Shown here: piece by piece, positions 14,566 to 62,296 of the stretch
Layout of the letters: each line of letters opens with the position of its first letter
Numbering within the stretch: position 1 is the first letter of the stretch
Source: a virus
Direction: 5' to 3' (one strand)
Length of the DNA stretch: 64,000 bases
IMG/VR virus record: IMGVR_UViG_3300029319_008466
Location: 18,991 to 82,990 of that record
The notes under the pieces: generated by a model
Told to the model about the DNA's origin: nothing
What the model saw: the letters and a program-made list of their open reading frames with translations, nothing else
The model's database searches: none
Program-made: the position numbers and the translations under genes

Positions 14566-14572
14566 CTAATTA
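14566..14572 (+). promoter_or_regulatory. CTAWTTA motif, putative late promoter element
   Basis: CTAATTA, 18 bases before the ATG at 14591, with GGAG in between. It follows the sigma gene stop and opens the tail block. Confidence 0.5.
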
Positions 14573-14590
14573 TTATGGAGCACGAATATC

Positions 14591-14878
14591 ATGAAAAAAA
14601 CAGACAACTATCTTGATGAAGCTATTGAAAACATTCGCAAAGATCGCGAGATTACAAAAGAACTGTTAAACGATTTAATAATATATCTAAGCAAAGACGA
14701 AGCACGCCACACGGAAGTCGGCACCGTTGCTGCTAAATATGTTGAAACACTTCAACGATCCAATGAACAGCTTGTAAAAGTTGTTACACTGTTAGAGAAA
14801 AAAAAGAGTACGTCCGTTGGTTTAACTGATGATGATAAGTCGGAAATATTCGACTTGCTAAACGGGGATGCAAACTAA
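14591..14878 (+). CDS. small coiled-coil phage protein
   Basis: 95 aa, highly charged and helical (NYLDEAIENIRKDREITKEL; YVETLQRSNEQLVKVVTLLEKKK), ending with an acidic LTDDDKSEIFDLL. The first gene after a CTAATTA site and GGAG Shine-Dalgarno. The shape resembles some small terminase-type or packaging-linked phage proteins, but this is only a weak impression. It overlaps the hub-like gene start by one base. Confidence 0.68.
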   Translation: MKKTDNYLDEAIENIRKDREITKELLNDLIIYLSKDEARHTEVGTVAAKYVETLQRSNEQLVKVVTLLEKKKSTSVGLTDDDKSEIFDLLNGDAN

Positions 14879-16212
14879 TGGCAACGTGGCCGACAAAAGC
14901 TTTAATTTTTGAAGATATTATTGATACAATACTTTCGGAACTTGAGCACAATTCCCCACGAACTACATCAAGACATTATGGTTTTCAAGCCAACGAAAGC
15001 ACAGCTTTGCGCGGCTTGGTTAATGAGGTTGAGAGAATAAAAATAAATTCCCGCGCGAGTACAGAATACACCGGAATTGTCTTAGAATATGTAAACAGAG
15101 GACCAGATGGACCAACTCCCTCACGAAGTGCAACAAATTCATCGAAAAACAATCTAAGACCCACTGCTATTCCTTATCGTGTTGCAGCAAGTAATGAAGG
15201 AGACGACAGTTTGGTAGCTAATGCACTATTAAATACTCGTCCGAAATATCCTGAATTTAGAGTATATGTACCCTATTTTGATTTGAAGGTTTCCGGGGCT
15301 CCACCTCAAATAAGAAACAATGTTCTTGTAAATTCTGCAAACTATCGAACATGTGTGATTTTAGATGAAAATTTAATTGGAAAAGCCCCGCCTGTTGGGT
15401 CTCTTGTTAAAGTAAAATATACAAATCCAACCGAACAACAAGGGTTATATCTTTCTTCAATAATTACATCAGACCAGCGTTTTGTGAAAGCAATAACAGC
15501 CCAAATGACAGTCGAAAACACTGCACAAGAAGCATTTGAATGTGAAGGCGCATGCGATGAAGTGCAGCATGCAACCGGTGATCCAATTGGCTCAGAAGCC
15601 GGGTATCCAGAAGAGTTTTATATTAATGGGCACCTTCTTTATCCATTTAGAGAAAACGAGCAAGTTAATTTAATAGTGTTTTATCATGGTATTGGCTATG
15701 GCAACCAAGCCTATGTTTTAAAAAAAATACAAGAAATTGAAGAAGCAAACCCCGACGTTTTTGCCAATAGTATGTTCTTGGTTCCAAATGGATATGCCAC
15801 AAGCCTCAAAGTTGTTAATGGGGTAATTGATACGTTGTCCGAAACTCATAACGTAACAATAAACAATAAAAGCTTAGGGGGCTGGAGCGCCGGTTCGATT
15901 GGCTTTATGACTGCGTATAGTGAAGATGGAAGCTTAGAGGGCACTTGGGATAGGACAATGTTAGCCGATCCATCTCCAGACATAGCTGCTTTTGGTGAAA
16001 ATCAAGAGATTATTCCAAAAAATGTATATATGCTCTATAATCCAGACAACTGGGGTGAGACTGAAAATATGCCCGATCTTTCAAATAGGCAAGAAAAACT
16101 AGCAGAAAACATTAAACAAGCCGGAGGTACAGCCGAGCTTTCGAATGACAGTCATGGCAAAATTTTAACAACTGTATTAAAACAAATTGGACCCACCACT
16201 TCATGGAATTAA
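14878..16212 (+). CDS. baseplate hub-like protein with C-terminal alpha/beta hydrolase domain
   Basis: 444 aa, probably two-part. Residues about 130-215 contain an OB-like segment (APPVGSLVKVKYTNPTEQQG) of the kind in gp5-type hub proteins. Residues about 240-444 look like an alpha/beta hydrolase: LIVFYHGIGYG strand, GGWSAGS nucleophile elbow (GxSxG, Ser337) and a C-terminal NDSHGKIL with the likely catalytic His426. T4 gp5 carries a lysozyme at this position. An esterase or deacetylase here would instead de-acylate a surface glycan during entry (inference). A separate peptidoglycan peptidase follows immediately. Confidence 0.68.
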   Translation: MATWPTKALIFEDIIDTILSELEHNSPRTTSRHYGFQANESTALRGLVNEVERIKINSRASTEYTGIVLEYVNRGPDGPTPSRSATNSSKNNLRPTAIPYRVAASNEGDDSLVANALLNTRPKYPEFRVYVPYFDLKVSGAPPQIRNNVLVNSANYRTCVILDENLIGKAPPVGSLVKVKYTNPTEQQGLYLSSIITSDQRFVKAITAQMTVENTAQEAFECEGACDEVQHATGDPIGSEAGYPEEFYINGHLLYPFRENEQVNLIVFYHGIGYGNQAYVLKKIQEIEEANPDVFANSMFLVPNGYATSLKVVNGVIDTLSETHNVTINNKSLGGWSAGSIGFMTAYSEDGSLEGTWDRTMLADPSPDIAAFGENQEIIPKNVYMLYNPDNWGETENMPDLSNRQEKLAENIKQAGGTAELSNDSHGKILTTVLKQIGPTTSWN

Positions 16213-16224
16213 AAGGAGAAAAAA

Positions 16225-17181: not shown

Positions 17182-17197
17182 ATAATCACATTAGCAA

Positions 17198-17204
17198 CTA
17201 TTTA
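17198..17204 (+). promoter_or_regulatory. CTAWTTA motif immediately before an ATG without Shine-Dalgarno
   Basis: CTATTTA ends five bases before the ATG at 17210. No purine-rich ribosome-binding site is visible, so a transcript started ~6 bases downstream would be leaderless. Confidence 0.5.
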
Positions 17205-17209
17205 AAGAT

Positions 17210-18169: not shown

Positions 18170-18170
18170 G

Positions 18171-23508: not shown

Positions 23509-23515
23509 CTATTTA
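23509..23515 (+). promoter_or_regulatory. CTAWTTA motif, putative late promoter element
   Basis: CTATTTA 18 bases before the gp25 start, which has an AGAGGTG Shine-Dalgarno. Upstream AAGATAAAA is shared with the site at 45632. Confidence 0.5.
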
Positions 23516-23935: not shown

Positions 23936-23942
23936 GTTGTTG

Positions 23943-23949
23943 ATATTTA
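23943..23949 (+). promoter_or_regulatory. near-match to the CTAWTTA motif
   Basis: ATATTTA differs only at the first base. It lies 18 bases before the GTG at 23968, with AGAGGA between. Confidence 0.4.
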
Positions 23950-27342: not shown

Positions 27343-30300
27343 ATGGCAATAAAAGATCTTTTTAATCAAAGAAGTTCTAACGTTGTCGTCTCCTCTAGTG
27401 CGTTAATTTTGGGAGAGGATGTAGAGTCATTAGGATATATCTCTGCTTTTGTTGAAGACGAGCAGCGGGTAGAACCACATGTTAATTTTACAAAGCCTGA
27501 AAATTTTGCCAAATATGGTTCCGCAGAACAGTATTATGACCAATCTATTAAATGGATCTATGGAGAATATCCGTATGATGGATCGTTAAAAGAAAAATAT
27601 GAATGGCAAAATAATTCTACATTATTAGATTTATACATTTATGATAATAGGTATCCAAAAACAACAGGATATGCTAACTTTTCAAGCGATGGTTGGGGCA
27701 CACTAACTGCCTCTATGGTTATTGGCTATGGCGCACCAGCGACCACTAACTATGAATATATTAATTTTAAAGGCGGACCTAATTCGGAGTTTGGTTCGTC
27801 ACTGGGTACTTCATCTTTAAAAGATGTTTTTGATTCAAAGTCAAATATTTGGGATAGTACTGTAACTGGGGCAGCCGGACCCATTACGGCAACAAGAGAA
27901 TCAAATCTTAAAACTGATCTCGCCGAGGGCGTCACGGTTGAGTTCTGGCTAAAGACGGGCTCCCTGAGCAATGCACTAACAGAGAAACAAGTTGTTTTTG
28001 ATCTTTGGAATGGACAGGGTTCTTCGAGCGCTGATTATGGTCGTTTAAGAATTGAAATTGACCCTCTTTTAAGTGCATCATCACCTTTCAGGGTTACTGT
28101 ATTATCTGGCGCTGTAGGACTTAGCACCTCGTCTTTGGAAATTGGCTCCAGTCTTGATTTAAATTCTTTTTCCGACTGGAATCATTATGCTTTTAGTTTT
28201 GTCAACAATGGCGACAACATTACAACCAAGCTGTATGTTAATGGAGATTTGGATGAAACCATAACTACCGGCTCCAGTATTGGTGAGGTTAGAAAAGATT
28301 TACAGGCCAATATAGGCGCTCTTTTGACTGGTACGTTTAACATGAGGGCAACCCCTACTGGTCCGAATCTTGGCTGGGGTAAGCTCTCTGGGTCGATGGA
28401 TGAGTTTAGGTTCTGGAAAACAAAAAGAAGCTCAAAAGATATTGGTCGATACTGGTTCACTAGCAACTTAGGAGGAGGCACTAACACTGACAATGCTAAT
28501 TTAGATTTAGGTGTATATTATAAATTTAATGAGGGCATTGTAGACGATAGCGGAATAGACAGTATAGTTTTAGATTATTCAGGAAGAGTTACAAATGGTA
28601 CATGGACTGGCTATCCAAGCTCAAATGCACGAAATACAGGATCCGCTATTGTCTCCGCTAGTGCAGGAGTTGAGGATTTAGATCCAATTATATACCCGAC
28701 ACACGCCGACGTGAGCAGTCTTAGCACAGAATTGCTTGCTTCTGGAACGCTTTGGGATTATGAGAACAACTCATCTTTATATTATTCAATGCCAGCTTGG
28801 ATTATTGAAGAAGATGAGGGAAATGGTGGAAGCACAGGAAATTTAAAAAAATTAACCCAAATAATGGGCACCTATTTAGATAATTTAGATCTTTTAATAG
28901 GAGAGCTTCCTAAGTTAAATGTTGCATCTTATCCAAGCAGCAGTGTGCGCGGAAAACTTAATAAACCATATCCATACATGCAAACCGCAGTCGGGTCACT
29001 TGGAATGCATGCGCCTGAATTATTTTCAAATAGTGATCTTATTGAATATTTTGGAAACAGAAACGAAACGGTAGAATTTGAAGAAGAGATTCATGATGTA
29101 AAGAATTTAATTTATAATAACATCTACAACAACTTGCCCGACATATACAAAGCCAAAGGAACCGACAAGGCTTTTAGAAACTTAATTCGTTGTTTCGGCG
29201 TCGGTGACGACTTAATAAGACTAAACATATACTCAAATAACGATACTTATAAGTTTGAAACCAAAAGAAGGCAAGCATCTTACAAAACAAAAGCTGCAAA
29301 TTTTAACAATGTAGACAGATTTAATAGCACAGTTTATCAATATGCAGATTCCACTAATCCAAATAGTGTTTCTTATATCTCGGGTAGTTCGACAGACAGC
29401 AAAACATATGAAGATTCTTTTCCAATTACATTAGAGACGGAAATAATTTTCCCACAAAAAATACCAGCAACAGAAGACAATGCTGGATCTCAAGAATTTA
29501 GGCATATTACGGCATCTCTTTTTGGAATGCACACAGCAATAGCATCTCAGTCTATGGCTGGAACAGAAACCGACACAACATGGCATACAACTGATAATGC
29601 CAACCTTCAAGTTTATGCAATAAGAAGTGGCACCCTTACTAAAAATGTCAAATTCATGTTGACATCTTCAGCCCCTGCACACATTCCAGAATTGACAAGC
29701 AATTTCTTTTTTAACGTCTATGAAAATCAAAAATGGAATTTTGCTGTCAGATTAAAGCCTCATGGATACCCACAAGCATTTGCTAGCGGAGCACTGGACA
29801 ACAACTATATAGTTGAATTTTATGGTGTAAGTTACATTGGTGATAGAAAAGTTGATGAATTTATCGTAAGCGGAACAGTTGCAAAAGATGCAGCAGAAAC
29901 TTTTCTAACTTCTCCAAAAAGAATATACGCTGGCGCACACCGAACTAACTTTACAGGCGCTGTGTTGCAGCGAACAGATGTAAAAATAACATCTTGTAGA
30001 TATTGGTTTGATTATTTGAATAATGAAGCAATTCAAAATCACGCTATGGATCCAGGCAATTTTGGAAACCCAAATCCATCAAGAGATGCTTTTTTTCTGG
30101 AAACAGATTTATCCAACGTCGAGGTGCCAGAAATTGAATCTCTGGCACTGTCTTGGAATTTCGAATCACTAACCGGATCTAATGCATCTGGTCAATTCAC
30201 TGTTCAGGATGTTTCGTCTGGGTCTGTGGCCGAAGTGGGTAGATACAATTGGTTAGGAAAAATTCTTAAGTATCAACACACTGGTCGAGGCGATTTATTT

Positions 30301-33300
30301 CCTGCAAATTCTACTGGATCAATTGAAACACAGTATTTGCACGCAGCCCGACAACAGTTACCAGAAACAGTATTTGGCGACGACAATATACGTGTTCTTT
30401 CTCAAGCTGAAACAGAAGTTTTTACGAAAGAAACAAGACCGTATAAAACATATTACGCTTTTGAAAAAAGTATGTATCAAGTAATTTCTGATGAAATAAT
30501 ACGATATTTTGGATCAATAGTTGACTTTAACAATTTAATTGGTGAGCCAGTTAATCGATATAGACCCGAATATAAAAGCTTAAAATATCTACGTCAGTTT
30601 TTCTTTGAAAGAATTGGCAACACTCCAGATTTAGATAAATTTGTAGAATATTATAAATGGATTGATTCAACACTTGAAGCCATGTTGATGGAGCTTGTGC
30701 CAGCTTCTGCACAGACTAGTGATGGTATTGATAACATTGTTGAGAGTCACGTATTAGAAAGAAACAAGTATCAAAATAAATTTCCAACACTTGAGTTTGT
30801 TAGACCCGACCCAGAGGGCGCAACTATTACAATCAATAAACTTCTTTATAGTTGGAAAACCAATCATCACCCATTAACCGGATCTGATAAAAATAAAGAA
30901 CTTAATCCAAATGTTGGACTACAAGCAACAAACTGTGGCTGGTGGAAAGGTAGAGCAGAGAGAGATGTAACCCCTCTTAATAGCGGAGATACGGGAATTG
31001 ATTCGGATAGAAACAGGGTTTTAAGTGCATCACTTCAGGCTCTTGAAAGAAACTGGTCTACAGTACAGAGATATGTCGTTGAAAAAACAAAAGTTATTCA
31101 TGGTGGGGTTAACTATTCTGACAACAAAAAACAACATTTTTATCGCGGTATTAATTTTCCACACGGTTCTGTGACAAGCATAGGTATACCACAAAACGTG
31201 TTAAAAGCCGATCAAGTCGAGCTTATACCTTTAAAAGATTGTGATGATGTCGGATCTGTTTTTGGTTTTGGTAGCATTGCAGATGCGGCTCGCTCTGGTA
31301 GCGATGGAAGTTACGAAGTTTACCCCAAAAGAAAATATAGCTATGGCACCAGAATTGGTAGAAAAACATTTGATTCTGGTTCTTTTGATGGTATTAAAGC
31401 TGAAATCGCAATGCCCTTTAATATTATGAGTGCGTCAACAGCCATGAAGGGATACAACAAGGGTATTCACGAGGGCTTTCACTCTGGAACTCAGCTCACC
31501 AACCTTCATAATGATGGATATGGTCAACTAAATGAAGTTCCAATGCAAGGACCATTTACTGAAAAATATGTGGGAGGTCATCAAGCTCGACATGTTAGAC
31601 TTAATTATTCTTCTTCAACACGGGTTGCGGGTGATAGAGCAGCAACTGTCAACAACTTGGATGGACAATATACACGACCAGAAGCATATCGTATTTTGCT
31701 CGGCGGCGGAGCCGGGAGTTCGGGTTCGATTGGAATTACCGGACCTGATTATGGTGGTCCATACCCCGACGTTGAAAGATACAGAGCGTGGTTTTTCCGA
31801 GAAGAAACAGCAAAGCGTCCCGTAAATATTAGAAACATTTTACAAACAACCGCATCAGTTGATACGGTTTTATCCGGTGTGCTTCAGCATGGTCCAATTG
31901 GCAACTACGAAAAAACTTATCAAGTTGTACAAACTTCTGGTCGCAGTACAAACAATTTTTGGTTTAATGATAATGGCGCTACACTTCCTACAATGTATAT
32001 TTCCGACAAACCAAAGACAACCAATGTTCATACGCTTGTAGGAGTGCGTATTAACGCAACACAGGTCGAACGCCGAGGTAACACTTTCATACCAGGAACT
32101 TACTACGAAGCGGGGGTTAGCGAATTTATTATGGGTCTTCATAAAAATTCAAACCTTTATGCTCCACAAGACGGCACGATTCCTGCTGCAAGAAGAGCCG
32201 ACAGAACGGTTTATCAACTTCCAAGTAGAACCAAACAAGACGCTGTTATTGTTGAAAGATTTTCCGCTCCTGGTGGTCCAGAAATCAGCTCTCTTGGCTT
32301 CTTAGATATTATGGCAGCCGAGAAGTCGGTATATAATGCGCTGCCCTTTAGAAACCTTACAGTGAGGGGTTCTGGATCTGGCGAACCTTCAATCTCTGGC
32401 ACCATGAGGATAGTTGATCACACCGGACACAGACGAGGTTTACGAACACTGCTTTCTCTCCACTGCGGACCCTTTGGTACAGATGGGACATTTGGTAAAA
32501 TTAATCAATATACATCTGAAGAGCGCCTTGCACAAGGTGATGCGGTTTCTGCCTCATTCCATAAAACTAATAGAAACGCACGACTTGTAATTAAAACCGA
32601 TGTTAATACAAGTTTTGATTCTAAGTTTCAGTATGGCACTGGCTCTGTTTACGACAACTGGTATGTGCAGCACCCCATACCACAAAATGATTTTCAATAT
32701 TCATGGATTAGTGGTTCTTTCTTGTCTGGAAATGCACCGTTTGCTCATGCCCCAAGATCAGGATTCGGCTCTGGATCTTCGGGATTTTTTAGTGCAATAA
32801 CATTTATGTCATCTAGTTTGCCCAACTATGCTGCGGGAGTATATTCGAATGGACAGGCTGCACCACGCTTAACACCTGTGGATTTTGTTGGATTAAATAC
32901 TTTATTCTATGAGGCATCGGACACTGATACAAGAATTTTTGGCGGCACTGAAGGGGCAGGCGGGACAATCACTCTCCAGTTGCAAGCCTCGGCATCGGAA
33001 TATTTAAATACAAGCATTGCCGCCTTGGACCACACTGCCTCAACGAACGGCATATTGAACAATAGAAATGGTCCATTCGGCTTCAATTCTTGGAAACAAG
33101 TTCGAGTTGGCAACAGTGCTATGGCGCGTGCCATGAGAAAAGACAACATAGTCAGCACTATTGATCCCGCAACGTTGTCCGAAAACCAACCAGGGTTACA
33201 TTATTATAATTGGTTGCCAAGTCCTTCAACTAATGCTCAAATTTTTGGACCACCGTTATCCGGTCCATCTAAAACCACTCCTGTTTCTAATGTACTTAAA

Positions 33301-36300
33301 TCAGTTTTACAGTATCATGAGCCAAACTTGTTGCAAAAATATTATCCCTTTTCTATAAACGCAACTTTAGATCCATCTTTTTGGCCAAGCAGTGGATTCA
33401 AAAAAGAAGTTAAAGTAGATGCATATGCAGCTTATGGAAATAAAAAACATCATTTTTCTAATTCTAAATTAAACAATGCGCTTTTAATATCCGATGATGT
33501 GCTAACCCCTGCCGATGAATTGTTTGATGAAGTTACAGACGATCTAAAAGGCACCCTCAATAGTGTTAAATATTCTGAAGCACTTTACCCCAAGGAGCTA
33601 AATGTTTATCGCCCACATATTCGCAAAAGAACAACATTTAAATCATTTTGGAGAAATGTGCGGCAAGATCGAACTGAAAAAGATGAAACTTCGCCACTCG
33701 CCAGTAGTGTAAAGAATTCGCAAGGCATACCAATGGCAACGCAAAGTATCTGGCCATTGGACGGAAGATTAAGTATTGATCCACAAGTTACAACTGATGC
33801 TTTTGTTAATGTTGCCGCCAACGCCTTGACCAGAGGCGGCGGCGAAGGAGAACTTCAAAACTCAGTCAACACAGTTCACAGCCCTTATCACTCCGAAGGG
33901 TTTTCGTGTAGTGATGCTGGTGGCGACAGGGACATTACTGGATCTGCGACTTATAATAGGCGACACTTGAACATAACCGGGTCAAGCGCATGGTCTTATT
34001 CTAGCAATGCTGCCAACGCTATCACTTATAGAGGCGACTTAGTTCCTTTTTCGGGCGATGCTCCATGGGATGCGGCCGCTCAATCAGGCAAATATCCATT
34101 TTATGATTCATATTCAGACTATGTTCACCAAATGAGGTTGATTGGAAAAGATTATTCAATTATTCCAGAATATAGAATGAGCGAAAGAATGGATGATGTT
34201 ATAGAGGAGGGGATAGATCCTTTCAACGATGCATCGTTATTTTCTTTAACTGGTGCAGTCGCAACTGCTCGCTCAAGTGAACAGACAGAATTTTATAAAA
34301 CGTATAGCCATTCAGATTTTATGAAATATTTTGATGTTGTTCAAAATGATCTTTACACTTCAGAATGGTCATATTCAGCGGAAGAAGGAATTCCTGGTCC
34401 CACATCGCTCACAGTTCGTTGTAAAGCATTGCTAAAATTGTTGCCGTATGAGGGTTTTTATCCTGCCCAGAGAACGTTACAATTAGCAAGTCTTTTTTCA
34501 AAATCGTATGGTGAATATGTTGATTTAACTGGATCTACGCCTGCGATTAGCTATAACCCCCGTGAATCCCGCTGGAGGGCTTTCTTGGCACCAATGTTTG
34601 CTCCGGGTATTATGTTTAACACAATTAAATCGGGTATTGCTGTTGATTATCCTGTTATGACTGGCGGCTGTGTTTTGGATTTCGCCCCTTCTGCTGATAG
34701 GAAAAACTATGCACTCGCGGAGCCAGTTTATTTTTCTTTCCGTGTGCCCTTTGAAGCGCTCGTCGAACCAGAAAATTATATCGCCAATCACGAAATTATA
34801 GATCTTGAAGTTCACCCTTCTGCTGCTATTAATGCAACCGCTTCATGGAATGGTGAGGGTGACAGTCGATATAAACTTGCCATGCACAACTTTTTAGCAG
34901 AGACGCCAGATTTTTTCTTGGAAAATCAAACATTTACGTCTTTCTTTTCAAATCCCTCTTCTAAGTGGAAAAGTTTTGATCGCTCTAAAAGTTATAAAAT
35001 GAGGGTAAAAATTCGCAAGTCATATGCATCAAACTGGAGTGGCGACCCTTTGTTGGAGATGCCCGGTGGACCTCCTCAAATTGTTTCGGGCTCTGAAACC
35101 ATAGTTATGTATAGTCGCCCATCTGCTTTTGGTCCTCCCACTATGGGAAGCCCAACCGGCAGCAAACCAGAGCAACATGGCGCAGGCGGCGGATCTTTTG
35201 AGGGATACAACGCTCCGTTTACGCCTCCCTATTATGACGGTTCAGCCTGGGTTGATTTAGAATATAATCCAAGCCTACATGCTGATCCCAACCCCTCTAG
35301 TGTTAATGATTTGCTTACCAAAATTACTGCTTCTTATTTAAGATACGAAAACTGGGCAGGAGATGTCGAAGGCTTGGGAGGGCCCCAATATGGAGAATAT
35401 ATTAACCACAATGCGGTGCAAATATCCTCATCAGTAAATCTTTTTGGCACCACTAATGGTCTCAAAGATTTACTCAAATATAGCGGAGTTGATGCATCAG
35501 GAGAAGAACAGTGGGTTATACAAACAAAGTTTGAAACTCCAATACTTAATTTTATCGGTGCCCGCGACACGGCAACTTCGATTGCATCGCTTTCTTTTGC
35601 TGCGGCGGCCTCATATTGCTCAGGAGGTGCGTACACAAGACCGATTGGAATGTGGCACCAGTATGGTAGATTACCCGAAGGATCCGAGGGAATTTATTTA
35701 GGCATACAAGACTTTCCAAAACCCATACTGAGCCAACATAACTCCAGTGGATCATTAGCAGATGCTGTTGGTTTTAATAAAAAAGATGAAAAACTCGGAA
35801 AAGTCGCGGCATCCAAAACAATTCGAGAAGCTGTTGTTGCTGTTCCGTTTGTTGAAAGAACAAATAACAGGAAATTCTTTGAAATTGATCGACATAAGAT
35901 TGATACAATATTACAAAATCCAACTGCCACGTCATACACACCAGATGATTCAATCAAACATATGGTTGATGCAATGCAAAGATATGTATTTCCACCAAGT
36001 ATGGATTTTATAAATTATCCAAACGAAGTCGGAGCATGTTTTTCAATGTATATTTTTGAATTCGAGCACCAATTGAACCAACAAGATCTTGTTGATATAT
36101 GGCAAAACTTACCACCTCGCATCGGAAGAGCATTTGATCCAGATGCACCATTGGACACGGATGAAATAATGCAGACCAAAGAGGTTACACACGTATTGAA
36201 CAATAAAGAATTATTAGAAGATGTAGACTCTAAGCTTCAGTGGATGGTGTTTAAAGTAAAACAACGTGCCCAAACAAATTATTGGAAAAAAACCGTAGCA

Positions 36301-36648
36301 AACAATCCCGATCTTTCGTTACCTTCGGATGTTGCAAATGCATTTACAGAACTTGAATTGCAAGAATCCGCCTTTTCTACTGGACCCTCTTCACTTGGTT
36401 TGCAAGAACAAATTGCCAAAACAATAAACGAGCCAATAACTAAATACGCCGCAGGCGGCGCTGGACAAGGCGGAATACTCAAAATTGATAAACAAATAGT
36501 GAACTATAATTGGCCATACGATTTCTTTTCTTTAGTTGAGCTTGTAAAGCTTGAACAGGATGTGATATTCGAACAACAAGAAATGGCAGGATCTGGTGGA
36601 TCCCAGGTGCCCACCACTGGTGAAGAACAGCAAGAGGAGGACGCATAA
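27343..36648 (+). CDS. giant (3101 aa) baseplate/tail protein with a LamG domain
   Basis: Features in order: residues ~195-370 are a LamG/concanavalin-type beta sandwich (GVTVEFWLKTGS, WNHYAFSFVN, LYVNGDLDETI, MDEFRFWKTKRS); residues ~590-625 contain NLPDIYKAKGTDKAFRNLIRCFG, the helix and FG turn seen in P2 gpI-type baseplate proteins. The rest is beta-rich with Ser/Gly/Asn loops (~residues 1500-2500) and a late helical part (~2900-3060). C-terminus is acidic. At ~340 kDa it is unusually large. It probably links baseplate wedges to fibres; the LamG part may bind glycans (inference). Confidence 0.75.
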   Translation: MAIKDLFNQRSSNVVVSSSALILGEDVESLGYISAFVEDEQRVEPHVNFTKPENFAKYGSAEQYYDQSIKWIYGEYPYDGSLKEKYEWQNNSTLLDLYIYDNRYPKTTGYANFSSDGWGTLTASMVIGYGAPATTNYEYINFKGGPNSEFGSSLGTSSLKDVFDSKSNIWDSTVTGAAGPITATRESNLKTDLAEGVTVEFWLKTGSLSNALTEKQVVFDLWNGQGSSSADYGRLRIEIDPLLSASSPFRVTVLSGAVGLSTSSLEIGSSLDLNSFSDWNHYAFSFVNNGDNITTKLYVNGDLDETITTGSSIGEVRKDLQANIGALLTGTFNMRATPTGPNLGWGKLSGSMDEFRFWKTKRSSKDIGRYWFTSNLGGGTNTDNANLDLGVYYKFNEGIVDDSGIDSIVLDYSGRVTNGTWTGYPSSNARNTGSAIVSASAGVEDLDPIIYPTHADVSSLSTELLASGTLWDYENNSSLYYSMPAWIIEEDEGNGGSTGNLKKLTQIMGTYLDNLDLLIGELPKLNVASYPSSSVRGKLNKPYPYMQTAVGSLGMHAPELFSNSDLIEYFGNRNETVEFEEEIHDVKNLIYNNIYNNLPDIYKAKGTDKAFRNLIRCFGVGDDLIRLNIYSNNDTYKFETKRRQASYKTKAANFNNVDRFNSTVYQYADSTNPNSVSYISGSSTDSKTYEDSFPITLETEIIFPQKIPATEDNAGSQEFRHITASLFGMHTAIASQSMAGTETDTTWHTTDNANLQVYAIRSGTLTKNVKFMLTSSAPAHIPELTSNFFFNVYENQKWNFAVRLKPHGYPQAFASGALDNNYIVEFYGVSYIGDRKVDEFIVSGTVAKDAAETFLTSPKRIYAGAHRTNFTGAVLQRTDVKITSCRYWFDYLNNEAIQNHAMDPGNFGNPNPSRDAFFLETDLSNVEVPEIESLALSWNFESLTGSNASGQFTVQDVSSGSVAEVGRYNWLGKILKYQHTGRGDLFPANSTGSIETQYLHAARQQLPETVFGDDNIRVLSQAETEVFTKETRPYKTYYAFEKSMYQVISDEIIRYFGSIVDFNNLIGEPVNRYRPEYKSLKYLRQFFFERIGNTPDLDKFVEYYKWIDSTLEAMLMELVPASAQTSDGIDNIVESHVLERNKYQNKFPTLEFVRPDPEGATITINKLLYSWKTNHHPLTGSDKNKELNPNVGLQATNCGWWKGRAERDVTPLNSGDTGIDSDRNRVLSASLQALERNWSTVQRYVVEKTKVIHGGVNYSDNKKQHFYRGINFPHGSVTSIGIPQNVLKADQVELIPLKDCDDVGSVFGFGSIADAARSGSDGSYEVYPKRKYSYGTRIGRKTFDSGSFDGIKAEIAMPFNIMSASTAMKGYNKGIHEGFHSGTQLTNLHNDGYGQLNEVPMQGPFTEKYVGGHQARHVRLNYSSSTRVAGDRAATVNNLDGQYTRPEAYRILLGGGAGSSGSIGITGPDYGGPYPDVERYRAWFFREETAKRPVNIRNILQTTASVDTVLSGVLQHGPIGNYEKTYQVVQTSGRSTNNFWFNDNGATLPTMYISDKPKTTNVHTLVGVRINATQVERRGNTFIPGTYYEAGVSEFIMGLHKNSNLYAPQDGTIPAARRADRTVYQLPSRTKQDAVIVERFSAPGGPEISSLGFLDIMAAEKSVYNALPFRNLTVRGSGSGEPSISGTMRIVDHTGHRRGLRTLLSLHCGPFGTDGTFGKINQYTSEERLAQGDAVSASFHKTNRNARLVIKTDVNTSFDSKFQYGTGSVYDNWYVQHPIPQNDFQYSWISGSFLSGNAPFAHAPRSGFGSGSSGFFSAITFMSSSLPNYAAGVYSNGQAAPRLTPVDFVGLNTLFYEASDTDTRIFGGTEGAGGTITLQLQASASEYLNTSIAALDHTASTNGILNNRNGPFGFNSWKQVRVGNSAMARAMRKDNIVSTIDPATLSENQPGLHYYNWLPSPSTNAQIFGPPLSGPSKTTPVSNVLKSVLQYHEPNLLQKYYPFSINATLDPSFWPSSGFKKEVKVDAYAAYGNKKHHFSNSKLNNALLISDDVLTPADELFDEVTDDLKGTLNSVKYSEALYPKELNVYRPHIRKRTTFKSFWRNVRQDRTEKDETSPLASSVKNSQGIPMATQSIWPLDGRLSIDPQVTTDAFVNVAANALTRGGGEGELQNSVNTVHSPYHSEGFSCSDAGGDRDITGSATYNRRHLNITGSSAWSYSSNAANAITYRGDLVPFSGDAPWDAAAQSGKYPFYDSYSDYVHQMRLIGKDYSIIPEYRMSERMDDVIEEGIDPFNDASLFSLTGAVATARSSEQTEFYKTYSHSDFMKYFDVVQNDLYTSEWSYSAEEGIPGPTSLTVRCKALLKLLPYEGFYPAQRTLQLASLFSKSYGEYVDLTGSTPAISYNPRESRWRAFLAPMFAPGIMFNTIKSGIAVDYPVMTGGCVLDFAPSADRKNYALAEPVYFSFRVPFEALVEPENYIANHEIIDLEVHPSAAINATASWNGEGDSRYKLAMHNFLAETPDFFLENQTFTSFFSNPSSKWKSFDRSKSYKMRVKIRKSYASNWSGDPLLEMPGGPPQIVSGSETIVMYSRPSAFGPPTMGSPTGSKPEQHGAGGGSFEGYNAPFTPPYYDGSAWVDLEYNPSLHADPNPSSVNDLLTKITASYLRYENWAGDVEGLGGPQYGEYINHNAVQISSSVNLFGTTNGLKDLLKYSGVDASGEEQWVIQTKFETPILNFIGARDTATSIASLSFAAAASYCSGGAYTRPIGMWHQYGRLPEGSEGIYLGIQDFPKPILSQHNSSGSLADAVGFNKKDEKLGKVAASKTIREAVVAVPFVERTNNRKFFEIDRHKIDTILQNPTATSYTPDDSIKHMVDAMQRYVFPPSMDFINYPNEVGACFSMYIFEFEHQLNQQDLVDIWQNLPPRIGRAFDPDAPLDTDEIMQTKEVTHVLNNKELLEDVDSKLQWMVFKVKQRAQTNYWKKTVANNPDLSLPSDVANAFTELELQESAFSTGPSSLGLQEQIAKTINEPITKYAAGGAGQGGILKIDKQIVNYNWPYDFFSLVELVKLEQDVIFEQQEMAGSGGSQVPTTGEEQQEEDA

Positions 36649-36737: not shown

Positions 36738-36744
36738 CTAATTA
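36738..36744 (+). promoter_or_regulatory. CTAWTTA motif seven bases before an ATG without Shine-Dalgarno
   Basis: CTAATTA precedes the ATG at 36752. Only ATAGTAT lies between, so no ribosome-binding site is possible there. Confidence 0.5.
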
Positions 36745-43527: not shown

Positions 43528-43580
43528 ACATGTGAGCTTTTAAACGCCTTAAATTTTTGGCAGTTTAATATAATCTAATA

Positions 43581-43587
43581 CTAATTA
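43581..43587 (+). promoter_or_regulatory. CTAWTTA motif, putative late promoter element
   Basis: CTAATTA 20 bases before the ATG at 43608, which has a CGGAG ribosome-binding site. The enclosing gap (43528-43607) is the longest between tail genes before 62 kb. Confidence 0.5.
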
Positions 43588-45631: not shown

Positions 45632-45638
45632 CTATTTA
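45632..45638 (+). promoter_or_regulatory. CTAWTTA motif five bases before an ATG without Shine-Dalgarno
   Basis: CTATTTA followed by GTATA and then ATG at 45644. Upstream AAGATAAAAG closely resembles the flank of the 23509 site. Confidence 0.5.
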
Positions 45639-45643
45639 GTATA

Positions 45644-46843
45644 ATGGCTTATAAAAAATTCAAAAACAATGATATATTTTATAATACTCTGGAAATGCAT
45701 CCAAAGTATGATTTTGTCATATATGACAGTAAAATTTATCTAAACAATCGCGGCGCAGTGTCTGGCGTACTTGTATCAAATGCCGGGGATGTTCCAACAG
45801 GTCATGTAAGCTTATACGAGTTGAATGTTGATAGGGCATCTGGAAATAAAATATACCCTTTTGTTAGTAAAGATGGAACACTCACTAATTTTAAAACAAT
45901 ATCTACTTCAAGTTTTAAATCTGATTATGCTTACGGAGACTCAATTACTGGATCATATCCAATGTCTTCTAGTATAGTGCGGGAGTTTTTTGCTTTTACT
46001 CCAACTTCTCGCACTGGGTCTGTTAGTCATTTATCAACACTAAAAAACACTTTAAATTTTTACAAGCCAATGAGCAACCATTATGCATTCGATGGACCTC
46101 TTGGCGATAAGGGCAAACAAAATGTCAATCTTATAAGTATTCCATCAATTATTTTTGGCTCCAAACTTAAAAAAGGTTCGGTAGATTTAAAATTTTATGT
46201 AAGCGGTACTGTAGTGGGGCAGCTTCAAGACTTAAATCGAGATGGCGAGTTAATCCAAGTGGGACCACCAGGAAGCACAGAGTCGGGGAGTGTAGCTGGA
46301 GTTGTGTTATATAATGAAGGGTTTATATTATTAACAGGAAGTTGGGAAATGAATACCGGACCTTATGCTGGTCCTTTTGCTGGTGAAAAATACACAGGCG
46401 GGAATGTCTTGGCTCCTAAATGGATTTATTTCGGAGCAGGGGCAAACGATGGAATTGCAACACCAAATGTAATTTCTTCTAGTTTTGGATTATCTTTTAA
46501 AAGCACGACAAAAACTCAAACTATTACAATGTTGGCACATGCGCTCAAAGGCGAATATAATCATTCAAATAATCCAACCTTTAGGATATCGGGTTCCAAT
46601 CCACATCGCCTTACCCCTTTTACAAGCAGCGTGGCCTATAAAGAACCAAAAAACCTTTTTATAAAAAACATTGTTTCTTCGTCTTACCCAGACCCAACAG
46701 CGAGCTTTCAAAAGACAACATATATTTCTTCAATTGGAATTTACGACGAAAACAGAAATTTAATTGGTATTGCAAAGGTGGCAACACCAGTTAAAAAAAC
46801 AGAGAATAGAGAATTTACATTCAAACTCAAACTTGATATATAA
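45644..46843 (+). CDS. tail structural protein, paralog of the gene at 44523
   Basis: 399 aa. Matches the preceding protein along its central and C-terminal parts (see that entry), with a longer N-terminal part. Ser/Gly-rich loops and a beta-rich layout suggest a trimeric fibre or tail sleeve. No enzymatic motif. Stop overlaps the following RuvC-like start by one base (TAATG), so late tail genes read directly into DNA-processing genes. Confidence 0.68.
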   Translation: MAYKKFKNNDIFYNTLEMHPKYDFVIYDSKIYLNNRGAVSGVLVSNAGDVPTGHVSLYELNVDRASGNKIYPFVSKDGTLTNFKTISTSSFKSDYAYGDSITGSYPMSSSIVREFFAFTPTSRTGSVSHLSTLKNTLNFYKPMSNHYAFDGPLGDKGKQNVNLISIPSIIFGSKLKKGSVDLKFYVSGTVVGQLQDLNRDGELIQVGPPGSTESGSVAGVVLYNEGFILLTGSWEMNTGPYAGPFAGEKYTGGNVLAPKWIYFGAGANDGIATPNVISSSFGLSFKSTTKTQTITMLAHALKGEYNHSNNPTFRISGSNPHRLTPFTSSVAYKEPKNLFIKNIVSSSYPDPTASFQKTTYISSIGIYDENRNLIGIAKVATPVKKTENREFTFKLKLDI

Positions 46844-51503: not shown

Positions 51504-51510
51504 CTATTTA
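51504..51510 (+). promoter_or_regulatory. CTAWTTA motif before the lysis-like block
   Basis: CTATTTA lies three bases after the SbcDC stop and 26 bases before the ATG at 51537. The predicted start of transcription (~51516) falls inside the left arm of the hairpin described next. Confidence 0.5.
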
Positions 51511-53477: not shown

Positions 53478-53484
53478 TGCTTAG

Positions 53485-55074: not shown

Positions 55075-55078
55075 ATAA

Positions 55079-57007
55079 ATGGCAAACAAGAAAAACCCGA
55101 AAAACCCAGAATCACCTTTGTTTAGGCAATTGACACGCCTATTGTCTGGACCCCTTGTAAATTATCGCACACAAACCAGCCGCAAGCTTTCTCGTGTTCA
55201 GCTTGATAAGTTTAAGTTTCAATCTGCCGCAGGTTTAAATTTTAAAAAATCTTCGTACAATCCTTTCGAACAACTTAGCACCGCAATTATGTCTAATCAA
55301 ATGCGTGCTGAGAGATACCAAGACTTTGAGCAAATGGAGTATACACCTGAGATTGCATCAGCCCTTGATATTTATGCCGACGAAATGACCACTTCGTCAG
55401 ACCTTCAGCCCCTTCTTACCATTAAGTGCCACAACGAAGAGATTAAAGCGGTACTTAATGAACTTTATCATACTGTTCTTAATATTGATTTTAATTTATT
55501 TGGATGGAGTCGCACAATGTGTAAGTATGGCGACTTCTTTTTATATCTTGATATTGATGAGCGCCTTGGAATACAATCTGTCGTTGGCTTACCAACACAC
55601 GAGATCGAGCGCCTTGAAGGTGAAGATAAGAGCAACCCCAAGTATGTCCAATTTCAGTGGAACTCTGGTGGGCTTACTTTTGAAAATTGGCAAGTTGCAC
55701 ACTTTCGTATTCTTGGGAATGATAAGTATGCCCCTTATGGCACTTCTGTATTAGAATCGGCACGCAGAATTTTCCGTCAATTAATTCTTTTAGAAGATGC
55801 AATGATGGCTTATCGGATTGTTCGCTCTCCAGAGCGTCGTGTATTTTATATCGATGTTGGAAACGTTGCTCCTAATGATGTTGAGCAATATATGCAAAAA
55901 GTTATGACACAGATGAAGCGAAACCAAGTTGTTGATGCTAACACTGGTCGTGTTGACTTGCGCTATAATCCAATGAGTACTGAAGAAGATTACTTTATTC
56001 CCGTTCGCGGCGGTGTATCTTCTCGTGTTGAAAGTTTACCAGGCGGGTCTTTTACGGGCGATATCGACGATGTAAAATATCTTCGTGATAAATTATTTTC
56101 TGCATTAAAGGTTCCCCAATCGTATCTTACGAATCTTGAGGGTGCCGATGAAGACAAAACCACATTAGCACAAAAGGACATTCGTTTTGCAAGAACAATT
56201 CAAAGACTCCAGCGCTCGATTATTACGGAGTTAGAAAAGATTGGAATTATTCACCTTTATACTCTTGGGTATAAAGGCGCTGATCTTATTAGTTTTAAAC
56301 TGTCCCTCAATAATCCATCGAAACTTGCAGAACTTCAAGAACTTGAACATTGGAAAACCAAGTTTGATATCGCCGCCTCTGCTACAGAGGGCTATTTCTC
56401 ACGTCGCTGGGTTGCTGATCACATCTTTAACCTTTCTGAAGAAGAGTTCATTCGTAACCAACGAGAGATGTTTTTTGATCGCCGCCTTGATGCAGAACTT
56501 GAAGGCGTTGCCACTGCTGTTGAGGGCGAGGCGGGCGGCCCGCTTGGTGGGGAAACTGAAGACCTCGGCGGTGATGACGTGGACGATCTGCTTGGCGGGG
56601 AGCCAGCCGATGAAGAAGGTGGCGGACCTCTCACAGAGCCAGGTGGCGAAGAGCCAGCAGTCGAACCAGAGGAGGACACTCTTCTCGCAGCACCTGGCAA
56701 AAGAGATGATCAAAGGCGCGTTGGCAAGAGTGGTCCAAATAAACGTCGCATGCGCTCAAAAGCACGCAGTGTTGAGATCAACACTGCACGTACAAACTTC
56801 CCAGGAGGGAAAGGTTTTGAGTCATTGGGGCACCTTGGGGGTCTTTCTGGCGAGTTTAGAAAAGCCGGATTATATGAGGAAGATCACAAGCCTACTGATA
56901 ATTTAGAAGAAAGACAATTATTTGAGGTAAAACAGGAGATAAAGAAACTAATTACGGAGTTAGATAACAGCAAGTTAGGTGACAAAAATGAAAAAAACAA
57001 AACATAA
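55079..57007 (+). CDS. portal protein, T4 gp20-like
   Basis: 642 aa. The gp20 pattern is present: YTPEIASALDIYADEMTT (~95-112), VAHFRILGNDKYAPYGTSVLESAR (~210), and RSPERRVFYIDVGN (~250). The C-terminal ~110 residues beyond the core are Gly/Glu/Asp-rich (~500-540) and then basic, a low-complexity extension. The portal forms the dodecameric gate bound by the terminase and neck. Overlaps the next gene by about 20 bases. Confidence 0.88.
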   Translation: MANKKNPKNPESPLFRQLTRLLSGPLVNYRTQTSRKLSRVQLDKFKFQSAAGLNFKKSSYNPFEQLSTAIMSNQMRAERYQDFEQMEYTPEIASALDIYADEMTTSSDLQPLLTIKCHNEEIKAVLNELYHTVLNIDFNLFGWSRTMCKYGDFFLYLDIDERLGIQSVVGLPTHEIERLEGEDKSNPKYVQFQWNSGGLTFENWQVAHFRILGNDKYAPYGTSVLESARRIFRQLILLEDAMMAYRIVRSPERRVFYIDVGNVAPNDVEQYMQKVMTQMKRNQVVDANTGRVDLRYNPMSTEEDYFIPVRGGVSSRVESLPGGSFTGDIDDVKYLRDKLFSALKVPQSYLTNLEGADEDKTTLAQKDIRFARTIQRLQRSIITELEKIGIIHLYTLGYKGADLISFKLSLNNPSKLAELQELEHWKTKFDIAASATEGYFSRRWVADHIFNLSEEEFIRNQREMFFDRRLDAELEGVATAVEGEAGGPLGGETEDLGGDDVDDLLGGEPADEEGGGPLTEPGGEEPAVEPEEDTLLAAPGKRDDQRRVGKSGPNKRRMRSKARSVEINTARTNFPGGKGFESLGHLGGLSGEFRKAGLYEEDHKPTDNLEERQLFEVKQEIKKLITELDNSKLGDKNEKNKT

Positions 57008-58360: not shown

Positions 58361-58361
58361 A

Positions 58362-58719: not shown

Positions 58720-58723
58720 CTCG

Positions 58724-58740: not shown

Positions 58741-58753
58741 ACTGGAATAGAAA

Positions 58754-59990: not shown

Positions 59991-59997
59991 TTAGATA

Positions 59998-60004
59998 CTA
60001 ATTA
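59998..60004 (+). promoter_or_regulatory. CTAWTTA motif, putative late promoter element
   Basis: CTAATTA with 27 bases and a GGGAG Shine-Dalgarno before the ATG at 60032. Confidence 0.5.
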
Positions 60005-60031
60005 TAGAGAAAAAGTGGGAGTTTAGTACAT

Positions 60032-60463
60032 ATGGGACAAGATCCTTTTAACAGATATAAAGCAGGCATACACAACGTTGGCTCTTATCAGGTAGCGGGA
60101 ATTCCGTGGATTACTGGATCAGCAGCGTTAAAAAGAGGTCAAGAGGTTAAATATAGATTTCCTAAAGTTACAAAATCTATAACAGTTATTAATCGAAGCG
60201 CGGCAGATATTAGAGTTCATTTTCATACTACCGGCGCTGTTCATCCTTCTGGAGTGATGACTGGCTCTCATTTTGTTCTTATGGATTCTAAAGAAGATTC
60301 TTATACTTTTAATGTAAAAGCGAGTGAAATTTACGTTACTGCGCCCCATGATAATGCCAGCGACGACGCCAGTTTTACAATTATAGCCGAATTGACTGGA
60401 ATTGAAATCCCCACCGGATTTAACCTAACTGGCTCTGGTATTTCATCGCTGGATGGAACATAG
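60032..60463 (+). CDS. virion (head decoration-like) protein
   Basis: 143 aa, beta-rich. It opens MGQDPFNRYKAGIHNVGSYQVAG; the middle (KSITVINRSAADIRVHFHTTG) and the strand SEIYVTAPHDNASDDASFTI suggest a beta-sandwich. It lies soon after the protease/scaffold region, where capsid or decoration genes usually sit. No cysteine or enzymatic motif. A decoration or vertex role is inferred from position. Confidence 0.6.
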   Translation: MGQDPFNRYKAGIHNVGSYQVAGIPWITGSAALKRGQEVKYRFPKVTKSITVINRSAADIRVHFHTTGAVHPSGVMTGSHFVLMDSKEDSYTFNVKASEIYVTAPHDNASDDASFTIIAELTGIEIPTGFNLTGSGISSLDGT

Positions 60464-60475
60464 GGGCTAGTAATA

Positions 60476-62239
60476 ATGGGCTATCAAGGAAGCAATTTTG
60501 AACCAGGAATGGTGCCAGAAAGTGGCACTATCGCAGGCCCTGGAAGCTATGTCGCACTCAATGACGGTGACGAATTTATTTTAACCTCCGCTGGCGGTGG
60601 TGACACCGATCCAGGCGGCTCAAACACACAAGTTCAATTTAATGACAGCGATGAGTTTGGTGGCGACAGCGGCTTTACATACAACAAAACATCAAACACT
60701 GTGATGATTACAGGCAGCCTTCGCCTAACTGGTTCAGAGGCACCAATATTAGTAATTGAAAAAGCACCGGGAGACACTACTAAAGAAATTGTTTTTGTAG
60801 AAGAGGGAGTAGAACAGGGCGGCATTTACTTTAATAATAGCGATCATCTTTTTGTAAGAAATGAAAATAACGCCAAAGATATTATTCTTCGAATAGAGAA
60901 CTCTTCAAATGCTGGAAGAAACTTGGTTCGACTTGATGGTGAGAGTGAAGCTGTTATCGTGGGTTTTGCAAATGCTAAAACCGCAGCGACAAACAATTGT
61001 ATTCTTGATGTTGATGGAAACACTATAATAACTGGTTCATTACAAACAACCGACTTTGTTTCTGCTTCTACTGAGGTCTTTGGAGGAGATTTAAGAACAA
61101 GCGGCAATGCTTCTATAACTGGAAGTATGACATCTAATAACATTGTTGTTAATGGCGGCGGTGTTACAAACGGTGCAACAGTTTCGGTTACAGCAAACGA
61201 TACGCTCACTACCGGACAAGCTTTATATATTGACCACGATGACGCTGCTACTACTGCGGTTGGTCCCGCCAGCATCAGAGTTGATTTTGATAAAGATGGC
61301 GTCATGGGTAATAGCCAAGCTGCTACCTATAAGGGTATAGCCGTTGATATGGCAGATGCTGCGACCAATCACGCAGGATCAACAGTAAACATGCTTGGTG
61401 TGGATATTGGACTTTCGTCAGATAACCCCCAAGGCACTCTTACAAATATTGCTGCTAATCTTTCAAGTTCGGGAGCAGATAACAACTTTGGTCTTAGGAT
61501 TATAACCGATGATGCGGAAGGCAGTGCGGATATTAAAATGGACTCCTCACTAGACGGTAATGACTATGCGACTATTGCCGTTCAAGAGCATGGTGCTTTA
61601 TCAATAACCACTGTAGATGGCGGCGCTGCGGCAGCGAATATTGAAATTGAAGCAGATGGCAATATTGAAATGGAGACAGTGGCAGGCGGCCAATTCGATT
61701 TAGAGTCCAACAACGCTAACGGTCCTGGCACCGGATGGAATACTTCGGGCATGGTCTCATCTAAGGTTGCAAACATCAATGGCGAGATAGTGACCACTAT
61801 CCTTGTAGACATACAAGGGACCAGGGGTTATGATGGTACCAATGCTGACGGTCGCGTTATCGGAAGAGACGGGCAAAGCAATGCCTACTTAACCAGAGTC
61901 CAACAGGCTATAAATGGCTATGTTTACAGAATTGAATTTAGTTGCATAGAAGAGCCAAATGCCTCCTCTAATCCGCAGAAAAATATTGTTCTTTCCGCCG
62001 ACGACACAGCCCGCGCTCAAGGAGTCGATGGCAGCAGCTATGACCATCTGGTTGATTTAAATAACAACTGGGCACGAGGAACAAGCAAATCTTCTGCCGA
62101 TGGCGCTACGTTTGGAAATGGTTTAGATGATGATTATCTTTATTTAACTAATGGATCAAGCGCTGGCGACGATAATGACTACACTGCTGGAAAATTTGTC
62201 ATTAAGCTGTACGGTGCAAACTTCACTGGTCAGGGCTAA
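60476..62239 (+). CDS. large beta-rich fibre/decoration protein
   Basis: 587 aa, acidic, Gly/Ser/Asn-rich, with repeated ITGSL and DGNTIITGSL strands. The C-terminal ~170 residues (EIVTTILVDIQG, YLTRVQQAINGYVYRIEFSC, DYTAGKFVIKLYG) look like a separate compact beta domain that I associate with marine phage capsid-surface proteins. Middle residues ~350-400 are low in hydrophobics, as in trimeric fibres. It shares the TGS-type strand pattern with the next gene, suggesting common ancestry. Confidence 0.62.
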   Translation: MGYQGSNFEPGMVPESGTIAGPGSYVALNDGDEFILTSAGGGDTDPGGSNTQVQFNDSDEFGGDSGFTYNKTSNTVMITGSLRLTGSEAPILVIEKAPGDTTKEIVFVEEGVEQGGIYFNNSDHLFVRNENNAKDIILRIENSSNAGRNLVRLDGESEAVIVGFANAKTAATNNCILDVDGNTIITGSLQTTDFVSASTEVFGGDLRTSGNASITGSMTSNNIVVNGGGVTNGATVSVTANDTLTTGQALYIDHDDAATTAVGPASIRVDFDKDGVMGNSQAATYKGIAVDMADAATNHAGSTVNMLGVDIGLSSDNPQGTLTNIAANLSSSGADNNFGLRIITDDAEGSADIKMDSSLDGNDYATIAVQEHGALSITTVDGGAAAANIEIEADGNIEMETVAGGQFDLESNNANGPGTGWNTSGMVSSKVANINGEIVTTILVDIQGTRGYDGTNADGRVIGRDGQSNAYLTRVQQAINGYVYRIEFSCIEEPNASSNPQKNIVLSADDTARAQGVDGSSYDHLVDLNNNWARGTSKSSADGATFGNGLDDDYLYLTNGSSAGDDNDYTAGKFVIKLYGANFTGQG

Positions 62240-62289
62240 TAGATAACAGATAATCTTAAAATAAGACTTTCTTTATTGTTAGTTCCCTC

Positions 62290-62296
62290 CTATTTA
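62290..62296 (+). promoter_or_regulatory. CTAWTTA motif before the last fibre gene
   Basis: CTATTTA lies in the 93-base gap 62240-62332, 36 bases before the ATG at 62333, which has AAGGGAG upstream. Confidence 0.45.

Follow-up and report, generated by a model that had tools for sequence, protein, structure and literature searches.

Which DNA element starts late transcription in a T4-type phage, and which protein reads it, is the question raised by bases 18,991-82,990 of the virus record IMGVR_UViG_3300029319_008466 (82,990 bases), a stretch of 64,000 nucleotides hereafter called the window, in which the short word CTAWTTA recurs between the genes of the structural region. Under a longest-open-reading-frame rule, the genes kept in the window lie nearly all on the + strand, and its T4-type parts include baseplate wedge genes, a resolvase, a primase, SbcC/D-like proteins, the terminase large subunit and the portal, besides a gene for a phage sigma factor. 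For a 24-kb stretch of the window, a search of 50,697 phage records gave no near DNA match. Relatives of the sigma factor, confirmed by tblastn, are encoded on at least 597 stretches in IMG/VR, from which we kept 80 loci whose sigma is 62-89% identical to that of the window. The element, widened below to CTANTTA, is with high probability the late promoter element of this phage and its relatives. The explanation that best accounts for the data, to which we assign a probability of about 0.84, is that CTANTTA is a late -10 element read by the phage sigma, with a two-part form at a minority of sites and with both leadered and leaderless mRNAs as products.

Distribution and consensus of the element

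All nine exact CTAWTTA sites listed by an earlier, sequence-only reading of the window are present at their positions. Twelve gaps of at least 17 bases follow base 13,000, and nine of these hold an exact site, whereas those at 23936, 47374 and 58677 do not; the combined length of the twelve is 599 bases rather than the approximately 400 given. Across the 26 co-directional gaps of the whole record (882 bases), shuffled sequences yield 0.28 expected hits, against nine on the coding strand and none on the other. Over both strands of the entire window, CTAWTTA occurs 24 times (20 on + and 4 on -) against 29.5 expected and is not enriched, so the signal resides in position and strand.

Enrichment extends beyond the window. 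In the gaps of ten records, a set that includes the window's own record, CTAWTTA is found 153 times on the coding strand and 12 times on the opposite one, with 12.2 expected. Among 7-mers with 15 or more occurrences, CTATTTA ranks first by z-score and CTTGACA, in which the -35 word of ordinary sigma70 promoters is embedded, ranks second. The corresponding counts for 14 records are 207 sense and 17 antisense (two records were covered in large part, namely, G002 over 160,000 of 161,719 bases and G007 over 200,000 of 205,517). A motif-free ranking of 7-mers in the gaps of the window and the 80 loci places CTAATTA (31 sense, 4 antisense) and CTATTTA (26 and 3) at the top, although this ranking includes the nine sites of the window, and near loci share orthologous sites. 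The sites cluster within 40 bases before gene starts.

A one-base scan upheld the core of the proposed CTAWTTA consensus but not the restriction of its fourth base, which is free, so that the motif is better written CTANTTA: in the sense orientation, base 4 is T in 144 cases, A in 63, G in 27 and C in 25, compared to 9, 8, 1 and 2 in antisense. For the remaining one-base variants, the ratio to expectation is no higher than 2.7, versus 17 for CTATTTA, and, small counts excepted, there is no strong bias towards the coding sense. The best form, ACTATTTAT, occurs 72 times in sense and never in antisense, with 0.9 expected, and the refined consensus is ACTANTTAT. By contrast, the T4 word TATAAATA stands at background in the gaps of the 14 records (8 in sense versus 7.3 expected, compared to 144 versus 8.5 for CTATTTA).

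Conservation before orthologous genes and the classes of genes served

In 13 records, counting window sites within 60 bases of a gene and ortholog sites within about 80 bases, the element precedes 44 of the 102 orthologs of site-bearing genes but only 9 of the 234 orthologs of siteless ones (Fisher p 3e-18). Seven of these nine fall at gene 23968, the window site of which is the variant ATATTTA. The antisense control shows no such difference (3/102 versus 2/234, p 0.17). A wider, per-gene test, which also takes in Flavobacterium phage immuto and Microcystis phage Mel-JY01, finds the strongest conservation at genes 43608, 60032, 51537 and 56979, middling conservation at 45644 and 23534, and weak conservation at 14591, 17210, 36752 and the frame opening at 62333, an unevenness suggesting that promoters shift among neighbouring genes.

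These data bear on the notion that the motif arises simply from base composition, stop codons and the AT-richness of the gaps, to which we attach next to no credence. The gaps are indeed AT-rich and the window-wide count lies below expectation; however, the same gaps contain 153 sense against 12 antisense copies where 12.2 are expected, single-base changes outside position 4 abolish most of the excess, and the element is conserved before orthologs. Chance arising from base composition is ruled out by the antisense, shuffle and one-base controls.

Among 2080 forward genes of 11 records longer than 140 kb, 277 have CTAWTTA and 147 have a sigma70-type (TTGACA/TATAAT-type) promoter, with sites counted within 110 bases of the gene, and six genes have both compared to 19.6 expected. 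PHROG scans covered 17 of the 65 CTANTTA genes and 19 of the 26 sigma70-type genes of relatives G009 and G007, mostly but not strictly the larger ones. Functions could be assigned to six of the 17 CTANTTA genes, all of them virion or lysis genes (a tail fibre, two baseplate wedge, two head-tail adaptor and one tape-measure/endolysin-like protein), and to nine of the 19 sigma70-type genes, none of which is a virion gene by best match (DNA polymerase, an ATPase, two primases, two single-strand binding proteins, an exonuclease, Hsp20 and an excisionase-type regulator). The strand bias, the spacing described below, the gene classes and the scarcity of sigma70-type promoters at the same genes fit a late promoter, and, together with the enrichment beyond the window and the conservation before orthologs, support the late-promoter interpretation originally proposed; by the earlier reading's own criteria, failure to find either of the last two would have refuted it.

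Spacing to the start codon and a predicted class of leaderless mRNAs

For 409 genes in 14 records, with start codons called mechanically here and in all other spacing counts, the distance from the end of the motif to the called start has two peaks, at 3-9 and 16-45 bases, separated by a dip at 10-15 bases (21 genes). In the near class, 58 of the 72 genes start with ATG and only two have a Shine-Dalgarno sequence; at 5-8 bases, the start is ATG in 42 of 43 genes. In the far class, 167 of 212 genes carry a Shine-Dalgarno sequence, against a background of 1109 of 2283 genes overall. A near peak devoid of Shine-Dalgarno sequences leads to the prediction, which we regard as well supported, of a class of leaderless late mRNAs: with the element at -12 to -6 in T4 numbering, a start codon five bases further on would itself be +1.

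Three sites in the window, all on the + strand, are of the putative leaderless type. CTATTTA at 17198-17204 lies 5 bases before the ATG of gene 17210 (1 of 13 orthologs with a site, relative G001 being arranged alike), CTAATTA at 36738-36744 lies 7 bases before the ATG of gene 36752 (1 of 12 orthologs with CTAWTTA), and CTATTTA at 45632-45638 lies 5 bases before the ATG of gene 45644 (5 of 14 orthologs with a site). For genes 36752 and 45644, the N-termini of orthologs back the ATG that was called, whereas for gene 17210 alignment from residue 1 is limited to the near relative G001. A site this near the start is lacking in most orthologs of 36752 and in several of 45644, and the leaderless arrangement is thus not fixed.

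The same spacing speaks to a further alternative, namely, that the element functions at the RNA level, marking virion genes for processing or translation, rather than as a promoter. Its location on the coding strand and near start codons is what such a signal would show. Nevertheless, the sites at 3-9 bases occupy the place of the Shine-Dalgarno sequence, the dip at 10-15 bases is explained by a promoter, a phased element lies about 20 bases upstream at part of the sites, and the genes concerned rarely have a sigma70-type promoter. We therefore consider an RNA signal very improbable and retain the late promoter as the preferred interpretation.

A candidate upstream element

Upstream of the promoter-like sites, G is found at -21/-20 and T at -17 to -14. 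The upstream TTT is strongest at sites with long leaders (46 of 86). With possible hairpins excluded, TTT is present at 68 of 235 sites versus a mean of 20.2 in shifted windows, and GG at 54 versus 23.6. Unseeded expectation maximisation recovers R-G-R-C-T-T-T-T with its peak at -22/-21. A candidate instance in the window is the promoter of gene 43608, where CTAATTA at 43581-43587 (+ strand, 20 bases before the gene; 11 of 14 orthologs with a site) is preceded by GGCAGTTT at 43559-43566 (+ strand), a candidate -35-like element which fits the phased pattern as a single instance.

Two further readings of the upstream sequence were discarded. The GG and TTT could have represented terminator stems and T-runs, but a possible hairpin is present at 43 of 206 sites, and without these TTT still occurs at 51 of 163 sites compared to 6-25 in other windows. 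The stretch AAGATAAAA, earlier proposed to be shared upstream of the sites at 23509 and 45632, is not a general feature, as GATAAAA within 14 bases upstream was found at one of 248 sites of relatives, and it was rejected as a shared element.

The two-part architecture is a weaker prediction than the leaderless class. In its full form, the late sigma of a large group of T4-related phages would join a gp55-like sigma-2 domain to a sigma-4 domain of its own and read RGNNTTTT-N12/13-ACTANTTAT, with the -10 element also launching leaderless mRNAs for a subset of genes; we put this forward tentatively, at slightly below even odds. If the two-part reading is true, it would represent a second architecture of gp55-type late transcription, without the need for a gp33-like stand-in for sigma-4.

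The phage sigma factor

The sigma gene (13864-14553, + strand) encodes a protein of 229 amino acids with a sigma-2 domain at approximately residues 14-114 and a predicted sigma-4-like helix-turn-helix (HTH) domain at approximately residues 137-227. Residues 28-115 match phrog_234 (late sigma transcription factor; E 6.7e-7). Only six deposited phage records match the protein, at 28-31% identity: four of Flavobacterium phage immuto, Microcystis phage Mel-JY01 and one uncultured phage. In an alignment of 35 sigmas, the mean column identity is 70%, and the C-terminal NKKAIYLYLREITGLNTKQVVNNLNK is among the most conserved stretches. Pfam sigma region 2 matches 7 of the 35 members (best E 0.026), and no region-4 model is among the 23 matches listed.

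The full-length AlphaFold model has a mean predicted local distance difference test score (pLDDT) of 78.2 and a predicted template modelling score (pTM) of 0.42. In VIA-align comparisons, it superimposes on region 2 of sigma-E (4lup; Z 9.5, 2.5 A, 91 residues), and its residues 137-227 on region 4 of sigma-H (3mzy; Z 8.0, 2.4 A, 73 residues). The C-terminal 100 residues modelled alone (pLDDT 83.9, pTM 0.71) retrieve 3mzy first (Z 7.8, 2.5 A, 74 residues), with sigma or sigma-containing entries in the first ten matches, although Z values below 8 can be common in such alignments. Given Z values near 8 and weak Foldseek E-values, the model suggests that the C-terminal part is probably, but not provenly, a sigma-4-like domain. 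The view that the window encodes a gp55-like sigma holds for the sigma-2 domain and its phrog_234 match, but the protein does not appear to be a plain gp55, considering its predicted sigma-4 domain.

Other searches added little. A sequence search of solved structures returned two weak matches, neither of them a sigma. In a viral library, the best match was an unnamed entry (E 1.4e-4), followed by phage sigma factors (E 2.9e-3 and weaker), with a Vibrio phage late sigma at E 0.021. Structures of T4 gp55 were not among the best 50 structural matches listed, which excludes nothing. The model PF02916 for the sliding clamp gp45 matched in none of 12 records, but the same search matched no control either.

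Recognition of CTANTTA by the sigma of the window is likely. The late promoter could instead be read by another factor, either a host alternative sigma or a polymerase modified by another phage factor, which we judge unlikely. Such a factor might be sought in a small sigma-4-type HTH protein encoded in 9 of 17 records or in the second full sigma of relative G010. Yet a phrog_234-type sigma of conserved sequence is present in all 12 records searched, and the motif is present in G012 and G014, where the small protein was not detected. Furthermore, in distant phages, where the sigma is 28% identical, the motif has shifted to the related ATATTTA, a pattern that co-divergence of the two would produce. 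The small protein was also dismissed as a necessary reader of the upstream element, because in G012, which lacks it, TTT still occurs at 9 of 27 sites versus 0-4 in controls. We thus favour the phage sigma as the reader of CTANTTA.

The small protein is encoded at G002:C1:131475-131726, at 136730-137053 in G009, at 79551-79784 in G010 and in six further records. The eight proteins characterized, of 76-108 amino acids, have an N-terminal cysteine cluster and an HTH of the sigma70 region-4 type (PF04545, best E 8.5e-10). Five of the eight match phrog_351 (RNA polymerase sigma factor), and that of G010 has no match in the phage collection at E 0.001. The protein could be a gp33-like helper or a competitor of the host sigma. 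The additional full sigma of G010, encoded at G010:C1:106174-106848 besides the late sigma, matches region 2 at E 1.4e-13 and region 4 at E 1e-5.

Other sites and neighbouring genes in the window

The remaining sites are likewise on the + strand. A CTAATTA late promoter -10-like element at 14566-14572, just behind the sigma gene, lies 18 bases before gene 14591 and recurs at 2 of 13 orthologs; at other sigma loci, 18 of 38 sites fall within 60 bases of the end of the sigma gene. CTATTTA at 23509-23515 lies 18 bases before the baseplate wedge gene 23534 (5 of 15 orthologs with a site). The one-mismatch ATATTTA is located, as described earlier, at 23943-23949, before the baseplate wedge gene 23968; however, counts of this variant across the clade are close to background (30 in sense and 26 in antisense, with 18.5 expected), and it is weak evidence alone, whereas 7 of 15 orthologs of the gene have CTAWTTA. 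CTATTTA at 51504-51510 lies 26 bases before gene 51537, ahead of the terminase-portal genes (5 of 7 orthologs), and CTAATTA at 59998-60004 lies 27 bases before gene 60032 (8 of 10 orthologs). A probable extra promoter, absent from the earlier list, is CTAATTA at 56948-56954, inside the 3' end of the portal gene and 24 bases before the start called at 56979; 7 of 10 orthologs of gene 56979 have a site within about 110 bases but outside the 40 bases next to the start. The least supported site is CTATTTA at 62290-62296, 36 bases before the start called for the frame opening at 62333, which remains open to the end of the window; none of three homologs has a site.

Further along, the region 62933-64000 contains two similar stretches 828 bases apart, each with CTATTTA in the same context (63111 and 63939); both words fall within an open reading frame and resemble copies of a repeat rather than promoters. 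The structural region also includes a single gene of 3101 amino acids (27343-36648). Each of the 13 relatives compared has a homolog, 32-58% identical over its best-matching piece, and in no case is a CTAWTTA site present. At the other end of the window, positions 279-13000 carry genes of the sugar-nucleotide/lipopolysaccharide type, including an aminotransferase, several epimerases and heptose kinase/adenylyltransferase-like genes, with gaps free of CTAWTTA. All 14 genes called between 3434 and 13000 have a homolog in G013, at 37-82% identity.

Proposed mechanism and its implications

From the enrichment and strand bias of the element, its conservation and spacing, and the classes of genes behind it, we infer promoter activity, the start points and the assignment of proteins to elements, as follows. 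Aligned with T4 TATAAATA, CTANTTA would fill positions -12 to -6, which places the predicted RNA start some 6 bases beyond the final A of the element; the peak of ATG codons near 5 bases agrees with this. CTANTTA would be read by the sigma-2 domain of the phage sigma when bound to host RNA polymerase. A second element, RGNNTTTT, located two helical turns upstream at a minority of leadered sites (about one-fifth above background), would probably be read by the sigma-4-like domain. Sites 16-45 bases before a gene would give rise to mRNAs with a Shine-Dalgarno leader, and those 3-9 bases before an ATG to mRNAs with little or no leader. Ordinary sigma70-type TTGACA/TATAAT promoters would serve early and replication genes.

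Several observations weigh against this explanation. As many as 58 of the 102 orthologs of site-bearing genes have no exact site, and relative G003, with a sigma 70% identical to that of the window, has only one site in 23 gaps (656 bases). The upstream element is missing from about 70% of leadered sites and is uneven between records, being barely above controls in some, for example, G010, which also encodes the second full sigma. In a second set of 38 distinct sites, from 25 of 67 loci outside the joined records, TTT was found at one site compared to 1-2 in controls; because the site following the sigma gene accounts, in orthologous copies, for 18 of the 38, this is a weak check, though the element was not confirmed. 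As for the protein, the link to named late sigmas is weak, involving the sigma-2 part alone in the phrog_234 match, the pTM of the full model is low, and Foldseek searches of the PDB with the full and C-terminal models gave no match at E <=0.001.

A promoter code readable from sequence for a group with many relatives among viral contigs would render late operons and their start points predictable in metagenomes. If leaderless late mRNAs are real, the position of a promoter would be coupled directly to translation. The first bases of the motif shift alongside a diverging sigma, with TA at -13/-12 in T4 and, at -12, C in the window phages versus A in immuto and Mel-JY01; this offers a natural series for studying sigma-2 recognition, and, with immuto being a cultured distant relative, testing is possible.

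Comparison with known systems

Phages immuto and Mel-JY01 resemble the phage of the window in their homologous sigma (28-29% identity), a similar order of sigma and baseplate genes, and a TATTTA core in the gaps, but differ in the first base of the motif, which is mostly A. In the gaps of immuto (139,827 of 160,410 bases), ATATTTA occurs 31 times in sense and once in antisense, and CTATTTA 12 and 4 times, respectively; in Mel-JY01 (179,372 of 190,001 bases), ATATTTA occurs 17 times in sense and 5 in antisense. The orthologs of gene 43608 in both phages have ATATTTA upstream. No promoter feature is annotated in the listed stretches of either record. Between positions 22,093 and 75,017 of the immuto record, 15 ATATTTA sites make up a second set, ATATTTAGRTAT, ten of them continuing as CAATAATTAAAA; unlike the virion-gene sites, these units mostly have AGTTG about 20 bases upstream and precede small genes. 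They look like another promoter class, in which case the immuto ATATTTA count mixes two classes.

Extracytoplasmic function (ECF) sigmas of the Escherichia coli sigma-E type combine sigma-2 and sigma-4 with little in between, as predicted for the window sigma, and use a GG-containing -35 element, GGAACTT for sigma-E, to which the GG of the candidate upstream element would correspond. However, the ECF -10 element differs from CTANTTA, and the window sigma family matches Pfam region 2 only weakly.

The T4 late promoter, like the one proposed here, has a single strict -10-like element before virion genes, followed by A+T-rich bases, and T4 gp55, like the window sigma, is a phage sigma of the sigma70 family with a sigma-2 domain, which in our phage would be the part reading the element. 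The element itself differs, being TATAAATA in T4 instead of CTANTTA. According to the available parts of the published accounts, T4 late promoters have no upstream element (PMC2988020, PMC7892883) and gp55 consists of sigma-2, a helix-loop-helix and a clamp-binding tail (PMC7892883), in contrast to the minority upstream element and the predicted sigma-4-like C-terminal domain of the window phages. The late promoter of Aeromonas phage Aeh1, as given in the available part of its description, has a/gC at -13/-12 (PMC2988020); in our own alignment of promoter positions, here and across the other phages, its (A/G)CTAAATA is similar to ACTANTTA but has AA at -9/-8 where NT is found here. Phage CBB, in the portion of the report available, resembles the window phage in encoding a gp55-like sigma and carrying a late motif before structural genes, with no gp33 or gp45 found, although its motif, ATAAATA, is of the T4 kind (PMC5259590). 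In the accessible part of another report, the T4-like Microcystis phage Ma-LMM01 is said to have neither gp55 nor a phage-specific motif (PMC5780444). The CTANTTA motif was not encountered in a listing-level survey of the phage late-promoter literature and the available parts of PMC5780444, PMC3037559, PMC7892883, PMC2988020 and PMC5259590; the word CTATTTA does occur in a terminator table for Felix O1, in the part of that source available.

Taken together, the alignments suggest that CTANTTA, ATATTTA, T4 TATAAATA and the Aeh1 element may belong to one promoter family, in which the bases at -12 and -9/-8 would drift with the sigma. The CTANTTA system is accordingly best read as a gp55-type late promoter in variant form, probably two-part at some sites, rather than a new kind of system.

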